From: Eggerthellaceae bacterium
GTDB taxonomy: Bacteria; Actinomycetota; Coriobacteriia; Coriobacteriales; Eggerthellaceae
Direction: 5' to 3'
Length of the DNA stretch: 64,000 bases
Assembly: GCA_022791455.1 (NCBI GenBank)
Contig: JAAVZC010000014.1
Location: 145,119 to 209,118 of the forward strand
The notes under the pieces: generated by a model
Databases searched by the model: none
Told to the model about the DNA's origin: nothing
What the model saw: only the letters and a program-made list of their open reading frames with translations
Shown: piece by piece, positions 4,822 to 9,478 of the stretch
How the letters are laid out: the number at the start of each line of letters is the position of its first letter
Numbering within the stretch: the stretch's first letter is position 1
Translations under genes and position numbers: made by a program

Positions 4822-6099
4822 CTACTCCTGGCCCTGAGGCTTCAGGGGCAGGAACTTGAGTCCTAGGAAGAAGACCAGGAAGCCGAGGGCCACGACGCCC
4901 AGGGTCACGCCGAACTCGAGGGCGGTGGGCCAGTAGACCATGCCCTGGTAGGCCTGGGCCAGATTGCCCTCCCAGTTGGTGACGGTGAAGGGGGTGAGGG
5001 CAGAGGCGTAGTCCAGATTGGCGATCTGGAAGCCGCCAACCAGGAGCTGCACGCGCTTGCAGAAGATGGCGGCGATGGCCAGGATGCCGGCCACGGCCAG
5101 GAGCGGGGTCGTGCGCAGCTGCGGGACCACGCAGAGCACGACGGCGACGACGCTCAAGATGATCTCACCCCAGAAGAAGGGCGCGAGCGGGCCGGAGACC
5201 AGCATGTCCACGACCGCGAGGCCGGAGCCCGCCGGGAACGCCTCGGTCAGCAGGTCGCAGCCGAAGAAGTACAGGTCCACCAGCAGGAACACGGCCAGCA
5301 GCTTGGCGAGCTTCACCAGGTAGGCCTGGTCGAGCTTCAGGTAGCCGGCGGCGCGCAGGGCGATGACGGTGGCCATCACGAGGCCGGTGCCGCAGACGAG
5401 CGCGGAGCTCACGAACCAGGGCGCCAGCAGGGCGGTGTGCCACATCTCGTGGGACTGCTGCAGGCCGAAGATCCAGGCGGTGACGGAGTGCACCATGACG
5501 GCGGTGACGAGCGCGATCACGGAGATCACGCGCAGGGCCACGGCCGATACCTTCCCCTTCTCGTGCTGGACCTGCGCCCACAGGTACACGCAGCTGAGCA
5601 CCAGGTACACCATCAGCACGATGATGTCCCACATGAGCGGCGATCCGAGGTTCGAGTACGCGAACAGCTCCCACACCCGGGCCGGCTGCCCGAGGTCAAC
5701 GACCACCATGCCGATGGCCGCAACGGTCGCCGCGATGGAGGTCATGACGGCCACCTTGGAGATGCCGCCGAATCCCTGGATGCCGAACGCTTTCGGCACA
5801 GAGCTGATGATCAGGCCGCCGGCGCTAAGGCCGACGAAGAACATGAAGGACGTGATGTACAGGCCCCAGGAGTCCAGGTTGCGCATGGCGGTCTGCACCA
5901 TGCCGCCGGAGAGCTGCATGCCCCACAGCACGATGCCGATGATGGCGATCACCGCCGACACGCCAATGGCGATGGTCAGCCCCTTGCCGCCCTTGACGGC
6001 TACCTTGGCGCCCGCCGCCTCGCGGGCCTTGCCCCTGGCCGGCGCGGCCGCGGGGGCGAAGTCGTCGTCGATGACGCCGACGTTGTCAATATTAGTCAT
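4822..6099 (-). CDS. NrfD/PsrC-family membrane anchor subunit
   Basis: Polytopic hydrophobic protein with NrfD-type sequence (GLSAGGLIISSVPKAFG...); last gene of Mo-oxidoreductase operon. Confidence 0.88.
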   Translation of the reverse strand: MTNIDNVGVIDDDFAPAAAPARGKAREAAGAKVAVKGGKGLTIAIGVSAVIAIIGIVLWGMQLSGGMVQTAMRNLDSWGLYITSFMFFVGLSAGGLIISSVPKAFGIQGFGGISKVAVMTSIAATVAAIGMVVVDLGQPARVWELFAYSNLGSPLMWDIIVLMVYLVLSCVYLWAQVQHEKGKVSAVALRVISVIALVTAVMVHSVTAWIFGLQQSHEMWHTALLAPWFVSSALVCGTGLVMATVIALRAAGYLKLDQAYLVKLAKLLAVFLLVDLYFFGCDLLTEAFPAGSGLAVVDMLVSGPLAPFFWGEIILSVVAVVLCVVPQLRTTPLLAVAGILAIAAIFCKRVQLLVGGFQIANLDYASALTPFTVTNWEGNLAQAYQGMVYWPTALEFGVTLGVVALGFLVFFLGLKFLPLKPQGQE

Positions 6100-6234: not shown

Positions 6235-6855
6235 CTACTGAATGTAGTAGACGGAGGGGTTCGTTCCCTCGTCCGCTAGCAACTGTCGGCAGTTCTTGTC
6301 GCGAATCAGCTTGGAGACCTCCGACTCGGGATCGTCAAAGTCTCCCCAGAAGCGAGCGCGTCCGGGACAGGCCCACACGCATTCCGGCTCTTCCCCTTTC
6401 GCAATGCGGTGCCAGCACATGGTGCATTTCTCCACCGTATGCTTTTGATGACTCGGAGCATCTGCGGCTCCAAGCGCGACGCTCAGCATAAACTGCGGCT
6501 CTTCCCAATTGAAGGAGCGTACGCCGGTGTAGGGGCAGGCGCTCATGCACATGCGGCATCCGATGCACTTGTCGGCGTCCTGGCGCACGATGCCCGTATC
6601 GGCATCCTTGTAAGTGGCACCCACGGGGCACACCTTCACGCAAGCGGGATTTTCGCAGTGCTGGCAATTCACCGGAACGTAAGAGATCGTCGAATTCGGA
6701 AACTCTCCCGCCGGAATGTCCACCCAATCGCCTCCGTCGGTCAAAATGCGGTTCCACCACATATCATCCGGAAGGTTGTTCTCGATTTTGCAGGCCACAG
6801 AACAGGTGTGGCAGCCAATACATCTATTTTGGTCGATTACGAAACCATATCGCAT
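6235..6855 (-). CDS. DmsB/NrfC-type 4Fe-4S ferredoxin subunit
   Basis: CIGCHTCSVACK, CQHCENPACVKVCPVGA, CIGCRMCMSACPY clusters; ATG at 6855 with AGGAGG upstream. Confidence 0.92.
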   Translation of the reverse strand: MRYGFVIDQNRCIGCHTCSVACKIENNLPDDMWWNRILTDGGDWVDIPAGEFPNSTISYVPVNCQHCENPACVKVCPVGATYKDADTGIVRQDADKCIGCRMCMSACPYTGVRSFNWEEPQFMLSVALGAADAPSHQKHTVEKCTMCWHRIAKGEEPECVWACPGRARFWGDFDDPESEVSKLIRDKNCRQLLADEGTNPSVYYIQ

Positions 6856-6865
6856 GATTTCCTCC

Positions 6866-9339
6866 TTATCGCCGCTTCGCATCTACACGAGCATCGGAGT
6901 AGCTTGCGGCTACAGCCCACTCGTCGTGCAGTGGGTAGGTCAGCTCTTGATATCCACCCTCTATGAACTGATCGCGTTGCCAGCCCTTGGGCATTCTGCT
7001 CATGCCCGTCGGCAGGCTGGGATCAATAACGCACTTGACTACCATCTTGCCTCGGTCGTTGAACACTTCGACAATGTCGCCGTCTACGATTCCCCTCTCT
7101 TTGGCGTCCTGTGCGCTAATCTTGAAAATGGGCTCCGGATCCAGCTCGCGCAGAAGCGGCGAGTTGAACCACTGGGAGTGAGTCCTCCAGCGGGTATGCT
7201 CCTGGATGAACACAATCGGGAACTTCTTCGCTGCCTCGCTGTTTTCGCTCACCTCTGTCGATTCCTGGTAGTAAACGAGGTGCTCTTTCGCGAAACGCTC
7301 TTCCGTAGGCTGGCCGTATATGAGGCGCGGAGCGGGTAGCTCGGTATAGAGCTGCGCGCGCCCGGTCACTGTCGGGAACTGCGTGCGGCCAACAATGCCG
7401 GCCTTGCCCGGTATGGGAGTAAGCTCGATGTACTGCTCCTCGCGCAGGCGATCCAAGCTCACGCCAGCGGCCTCAACGGAGGGGCCGGACAGGAGCATCC
7501 GCGCATATTCCTCGAAGCCGTATTCAGCCGGGAACGCGTCCTCGTGGCCCATCGCTCGGCCAATCAGGCCGGCAATTTCAACGTCGCTTTTCGCCTCGTA
7601 CAGGGGATCGATGACTTGGTCCTGGTGGACGATATACGGGAAGTTATGGGCCTTGCGGAAATCTTCCACCTCGTAGAACGAGGCAACGGGCAGCACCATG
7701 TCGGCATAACGTGCCGTATCTGTCATCTCCATATCAAGCACCACATGGAAATCCAGGTTCGGGACAATGTCGTCGAAATAGCCGTTCGAAGCACCCCAGT
7801 TGCTTGCGGGATTGGAGATCGCCGTCAGCATCGCCTTGACCGGGAAAGGACCGCCCTCCCACTCCTGCTTCGCCACAACCTCATGGAACAGAGTCCAGGG
7901 AATGTTAGAGACCATGCCCTTAAATCCAGGGGCCGCCCAAAGCCCAGGGATGTTTAGGGAAAGGTTGGTGTTGAGGTAGATGCCCGTAAAGCCAGCGCCA
8001 TCTCGACCCAGCTGGCCTGCGAGCGCCATAAGAATGGCAATTGCCCAACAAGACTGATAGCCGTTATCGTAGTGGTCCATTCCGAACGAAATATTCACCG
8101 ACACAGCGCGAGAGTTGGCAAACAAGTTCGCGAGCTCGATAATGGTTTCCTTCGGTACCCCCGTCACCGTGACTGCCTCATCGACCGAGTACTCCATCAG
8201 CCGGTTCTTAAGCAGCGAGTACGAGGTGTCGACCTCCACGCCATTGACCTCGAAAGATCCCTCCAGCGCCGGATCGACTGCTTCGTCGAAGAGCACAGCC
8301 GAGTTGCTGGCCGCGTCCCACACGTAGAACTCATCAATGGGTTCTTGGGTTTCAGGATCTACCGGCACTTCCTCGAAATCGCTCTTGCGCAGCAACAGAC
8401 CGGTGTCGCGGCGTACGAGAAGCGGTGCGGTTGTGCGGTTACGGATGAAGTCGTCGTTCTGCAGGTTGTTCTCAACGATATAGCGCGCCATCGCGAGGGC
8501 CAGATACCCGTCGGTGGTCGGCTTGATCGGGACATAGACATCGGACTTGTGGGCAGTCGCACTCTTGATCGGATCAATTGTGAGCACTTGCGTCCCCTGC
8601 TCTTTCGCATGCTGAATCCAGCGCCAATTCTGAGGTGCGCTATGCACCGGATTGCTGCCCCAGATCACAACATGAGACGAGTCCAGAACGCTCTTTGCCT
8701 CATTTGCGAAGTACATCAGGCCGGTTCCCAAAACGCGGTCGATGCCATAGCCGGTCGCAAGGTCCACGATGCCGGCAGGAGACGTTACTCCCATCACATT
8801 GCCCAAACGAGCGAAGATGCCCGTGGCGCCGTGCATTTCACCGTAGTTTCCCGTACCCAGCGTAAATGCAACCGCCGTCGGGCCATAGGTCTCAATGGTC
8901 TCTTTGAAATGGTCGGCTATCTCGGAAATCGCGTCGTCCCAAGAAATCCGCTCCCATTCGCCTGCTCCGCGCTCGGTACCGTCCACGCGGCGCATCGGGT
9001 ACTTAATTCGCTCCGATCCATAGATGCGGTGCATATAGGACATGCCGCGCAAGCAGCTCCCTCGATAGAGATCTTGGCTGTACTCGGCGGGCTCCAGACG
9101 GACGATTTTTCCATCGCGAACGTGGGCTGCATATCGGCACGACTGCATGCAGTTCGACCGGCACACGCCATAACCCACGGTCTCCTCCGCTTGAGCACCC
9201 TGGGCAATTGCGCCCTGGGCTCCAACGGTCAGAGACAATCCCGATGCCCCGGCGATTGCACCGGCAACAGCGGCGGTGCCCTTTAGGAAGGATCTACGAG
9301 AGACCCCCCCCCATGCGTGATTTTAGAAGATTGTGACAT
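6866..9339 (-). CDS. DMSO reductase-family molybdopterin oxidoreductase with Tat signal; N-terminus out of frame at a G9 tract
   Basis: Main frame 6866..9238 carries CRSNCMQSC Fe-S motif and MGD-binding motifs. Upstream ATG at 9339 (RBS AGGAGG) reads MSQSSKITHGGG and only joins SRRSFLKGTAAVAGAIAGASG if the G9 run changes by +1/-2. Confidence 0.85.
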
Positions 9340-9448
9340 CTCTCATCCTCCTGTTTCCCGTCCCCTCGGGCGAATCCTCTTGCGGCCGCCCCGGAAACGG
9401 GCTCTCTCAACAGACTTGCGAATCGGCCGGATTCAACATGGGCACAGT

Positions 9449-9478
9449 CTGTCATACGCTGTCATACACTGTCAACCC
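9449..9478. repeat. 10-bp phased direct repeats CTGTCATACG/CTGTCATACA/CTGTCAACCC
   Basis: Three consecutive 10-bp units in the promoter region of the Mo-oxidoreductase operon. Confidence 0.7.

Follow-up and report, generated by a model that had tools for sequence, protein, structure and literature searches.

A nine-guanine tract between the start codon and the Tat signal of an Eggerthellaceae molybdopterin oxidoreductase gene: probable slipped-strand phase variation

The window, a 64 kb stretch of DNA from an Eggerthellaceae bacterium, carries on its minus strand an operon for a molybdopterin oxidoreductase. The gene of the catalytic subunit (6866 to 9301, minus strand) has an intact reading frame, matches PF04879, PF00384 and PF01568, and is 70–73% identical to its orthologues. 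The gene of a 4Fe-4S electron-transfer subunit (6235 to 6882, minus strand) starts within the end of the catalytic gene, with an overlap of 17 nt that makes translational coupling of the two possible, and the gene of a NrfD/PsrC-type membrane subunit lies downstream in the operon (4822 to 6099, minus strand). Pfam and NCBIfam matches to the Fe4S4, molybdopterin and dinucleotide-binding domains, together with the Fe-S and NrfD partners, identify a three-subunit enzyme of the DMSO-reductase superfamily; its solved structural relatives include DMSO reductase family type II enzymes and ethylbenzene dehydrogenase. Upstream lies a conserved promoter-like element, TTGACA-N13-TATGACA (9450 to 9475, minus strand), which is common to related reductase genes.

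The 5' end of the catalytic gene is interrupted by a homopolymer. A Shine-Dalgarno sequence, AGGAGG (9352-9347, minus strand), with a counterpart in the orthologues, precedes the ATG at 9339-9337 by 7 nt, and nine consecutive Gs (minus strand 9312-9304; C9 on the plus strand) stand between this ATG and the twin-arginine motif SRRSFLK (9281 to 9301, minus strand). On re-reading of the window, the sequence, coordinates and frames given in the earlier note proved to be exact. The 810-codon enzyme ORF, including the Tat motif, is intact but lies in a different frame from the conserved start: translation from ATG 9339 reads MSQSSKITHGGGSLVDPS-stop (9283 to 9339, minus strand), 18 residues that end at a TAA at 9285-9283. 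In the enzyme frame, the sequence 5' of the Tat motif runs to a TAA at 9325-9323 and contains no start codon. The homopolymer, whose length lies in the hypermutable range, is thus within the coding region, and a change of one unit decides whether the start is in frame with an ORF that is itself intact; start and Tat ORF are joined only if the number of Gs is 1 mod 3. In this assembly the start is not joined in frame to the Tat signal, whereas in the orthologues it is.

Two other start codons were considered and rejected. The internal TTG at 9238, named earlier as a possible native start, is indeed the earliest start codon that the open frame offers, but no Shine-Dalgarno sequence is visible upstream of it and it lies 3' of the Tat motif. 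The ATG at 9346 directly abuts the ribosome-binding site, and its frame closes within a few codons.

Orthologues of ~70% identity, from Adlercreutzia and related genomes, have the ribosome-binding site, the ATG and a similar N-terminus in frame, with the twin arginine ~13 codons after the start. The sampled orthologues in other Eggerthellaceae are without a long G tract, and a more distant one (L012, 35% identity) has G6 at the equivalent position. Because the orthologues share the start region, in frame and without the tract, this conservation marks ATG 9339 as the correct start, in agreement with the earlier view that it is the sole good one, and the tract as specific to the lineage. It plausibly arose in the window's lineage from the Gly-Gly codons that often precede the twin arginine. 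The contig carrying the closest orthologue (L036, G109:C142; 73% identity) stops right at the Tat-signal codons, and contig ends at long G tracts are a frequent occurrence.

The tract is the single run of at least eight Gs in the window, and the next-longest G or C run of at least seven is one C7 at 25565. Since base composition makes G8 runs unsurprising (5.8 matches expected against 2 found, both overlapping in this one tract), the tract is remarkable for its location and not for its mere existence. The number of G tracts of at least nine varied among twelve relatives from 1 (G134) to 109 (G062) per genome. When those of G061 and G007 were surveyed, many were intergenic or in frame, so that long G tracts alone constitute no evidence of switching. 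By a rough estimate, the number of Tat-adjacent tracts across the family is also close to that expected from uniform scatter, and for this reason the case for enrichment rests on comparison within genes. Poly-G in Gly/Ala-rich signal peptides may reflect simple tolerance. Switching is supported by the contrast within genes, the broken frames and a difference in length between species.

Recurrence of the layout was surveyed by pattern searches in 140 family genomes, with each species represented by a single genome, and by protein searches. In three related genomes, other Mo-oxidoreductase genes carry G9 to G11 tracts within the codons of the Tat signal; one is in frame (L030 in G002, G10), and the rest are out of frame (L155 in G002, L057 in G061 and L058 in G064, each G9, and L060 in G064, G11). 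For each of the Tat tracts, the frame is continuous at lengths of 1 mod 3, which encode Gly-Gly-Gly and then Ala or Val. Among 62 unique enzymes, five tracts of at least eight Gs were located in 18.2 kb of N-terminal region versus none in 141.7 kb of enzyme body, three of the five having been sampled because of the tract and two (L030 and L155) having come from protein searches. A G12 before an RRWFLK-like motif (L055) was rejected, as no ORF follows it.

Two of these genes could be compared between species. Longer loci for the genes of L057 and L060, namely L149 and L150, are orthologues (94% identical in amino acids, 91% in nucleotides) that have the tract in common, out of frame in each species but differing in length (9 G versus 11 G). 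The pair has diverged with a dN/dS of 0.138 at a dS of 0.23. This ratio shows purifying selection, like that on a gene in use, even though the gene is OFF in both assemblies.

A pattern search of the window's own genome (G000) revealed eight tracts of at least nine Gs, four in genes and four apparently intergenic. All four in-gene tracts break the frame, all have a length of 9, and all are one base short of the frame. Besides the oxidoreductase gene, they affect hsdM, a type I restriction-modification methylase gene (C7:153255-153263, L074:5256-5264, minus strand; frame break near codon 446), the gene of an MBOAT O-acyltransferase (C10:352132-352140, L076:5133-5141; frame break in the N-terminal part) and that of a surface protein that exceeds 1,800 aa and contains Listeria-Bacteroides repeats (C11:46472-46480, L077:5473-5481, minus strand; tract in the Sec signal peptide, out of frame). 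Phase variation is well known in all three classes, restriction-modification methylases, O-acyltransferases and surface proteins. At the exact G8 tracts of this genome, no clear break of a gene's frame was seen. A search for MutS1 gave no match in the three genomes of the window's genus, and the same search matched in 11 of 14 control genomes.

We consider slipped-strand, translational phase variation of the Mo-oxidoreductase gene to be the most likely reading of these data, and hold it as probable. The 5' end of this gene, which encodes a Tat-exported molybdopterin oxidoreductase, would contain in the G9 a hypermutable simple-sequence tract. Replication slippage would add or remove single Gs, probably uncorrected in a lineage that apparently is without MutS. 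With a tract length of 1 mod 3, start, Tat signal and enzyme would be read continuously (ON). The present length would stop translation after 18 codons without producing a Tat-bearing enzyme (OFF), and the coupled Fe-S subunit may decrease as well. Cells would in this way randomly toggle a respiratory module. Slippage in living cells, its reversibility, its polarity and its adaptive value are all inferred from the DNA. G tracts longer than 7 count as hypermutable, and Campylobacter jejuni, which lacks mismatch repair, shows very high poly-G switching, at rates of 4e-4 to 4e-3 (PMC4235727). Mycobacteria have NucS in place of MutS and leave indels of 1–2 nt unrepaired (PMC11551767), and mycobacterial genes are reversibly silenced by homopolymer frameshifts (PMC10159617).

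The earlier note had proposed slipped-strand ON/OFF control of "export or expression". The slipped-strand part has in part gained ground, through the recurrence of the layout, the 9 G and 11 G orthologues, the three further frame-breaking tracts and the absence of a MutS1 match. Of the two targets, expression is retained and export is not, because the OFF state yields an 18-aa peptide and enzyme synthesis itself would be lost.

The main caution concerns the uniformity of the in-gene tracts of this genome, since systematic undercalling could give the same picture of length 9, one base short, in all four. A one-base sequencing or assembly error would mean that the real tract is in frame and the gene encodes an ordinary Tat-exported oxidoreductase, with a tract that could still be unstable. 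Illumina sequencing is error-prone at poly-G of 8 or more (PMC4235727). However, none of the ~45 other ORFs in the window shows signs of a frame break, the same assembly contains 10- and 11-G tracts elsewhere, and the layout also appears in independently assembled genomes of other species, where the tracts deviate to either side (9 and 11). We regard this explanation as unlikely overall, although it ranks next after phase variation. That the gene is an early pseudogene, with a fixed loss of function after chance expansion of a Gly-Gly codon pair, would agree with the broken frame and with the absence of a long tract from the other sampled orthologues; it is improbable given the 810 intact codons, the intact downstream Fe-S/NrfD operon, and the low dN/dS of L149 and L150 despite a shared tract that is OFF in both species. 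Constant low expression from unswitched DNA, with slippage during transcription or a shift of ribosomes between frames at the G-run, is conceivable on a 9-nt homopolymer with the downstream frame kept, but it is very improbable. Poly-G is not a usual slippage substrate, and in contrast to a conserved recoding site the tracts differ among enzymes and species in length (9 to 11) and in position (preceding the signal or within it).

Phase variation of the oxidoreductase gene would have close counterparts elsewhere. Neisseria hpuAB and hmbR and the polyG loci of Campylobacter likewise have a G-tract of at least 7 in the 5' coding part, a start out of frame and a length in the hypermutable class (PMC4235727, PMC1097732). 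Their targets are surface antigens or receptors, whereas here the putative switch would act on a respiratory Mo-enzyme that bears a Tat signal, in a gut actinobacterium. The glpK gene of Mycobacterium tuberculosis offers a metabolic gene that is reversibly silenced by homopolymer frameshifts in an actinobacterium without MutS/L (PMC10159617); it differs in having a C-run, in encoding a cytoplasmic kinase and in having been shown experimentally, as opposed to a G-run in a signal peptide. Within the family, the capsule of Eggerthella lenta displays reversible, heritable heterogeneity (PMC13174815), although there the mechanism is a megabase-scale inversion rather than slipped-strand change and the target is the capsule.

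Poly-G was also observed in the spacer of the reductase promoter, TTGAC-N13-TATGACA, of a paralogous reductase gene in other species. The spacer is 12 instead of 13 with a G10 at L008:2810-2845, 11 instead of 13 with a G9 at both L010:2621 and L011:1530, and 12 instead of 13 with an interrupted tract, GGAGGGGGG, at L009:2682. These spacers are candidates for phase variation of promoter strength. Those of L008, L010 and L011 resemble the homopolymer in the Neisseria porA promoter (PMC1097732), a likeness limited to the paralogous gene in other species, as the window tract is coding.

The open-access literature yielded no account of slipped-strand variation affecting Tat-exported respiratory enzymes or occurring in Eggerthellaceae, most subscription journals being outside the scope of the search; the mechanism is already known, and the target and lineage are apparently undescribed. 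As a tentative generalization, to which we give somewhat less than even credence, some Eggerthellaceae without MutS may control their large repertoires of respiratory Mo-reductases by poly-G contingency switches, located in the codons of Tat signals as well as in a conserved promoter spacer. Clonal gut populations would then be mosaics of anaerobic respiration capacities. Gut Eggerthellaceae convert drugs, polyphenols and steroids, partly via Mo-reductases of this DMSO-reductase superfamily. If these enzymes flip by tract slippage, the presence of a gene would be no predictor of activity, strain stocks with near-identical genomes could differ in phenotype and would require tract genotyping, and slipped-strand switching would reach beyond surface antigens into respiration.

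The apparently intergenic tracts of the window's genome are G10 to G11 in length and are situated at C7:34142, C8:66291, C11:63167 and C15:101048. The last of these is followed, ~200 bp downstream, by a membrane-protein ORF with the N-terminus MTTVICLLLVVFFLAMNAFFVVAEF.
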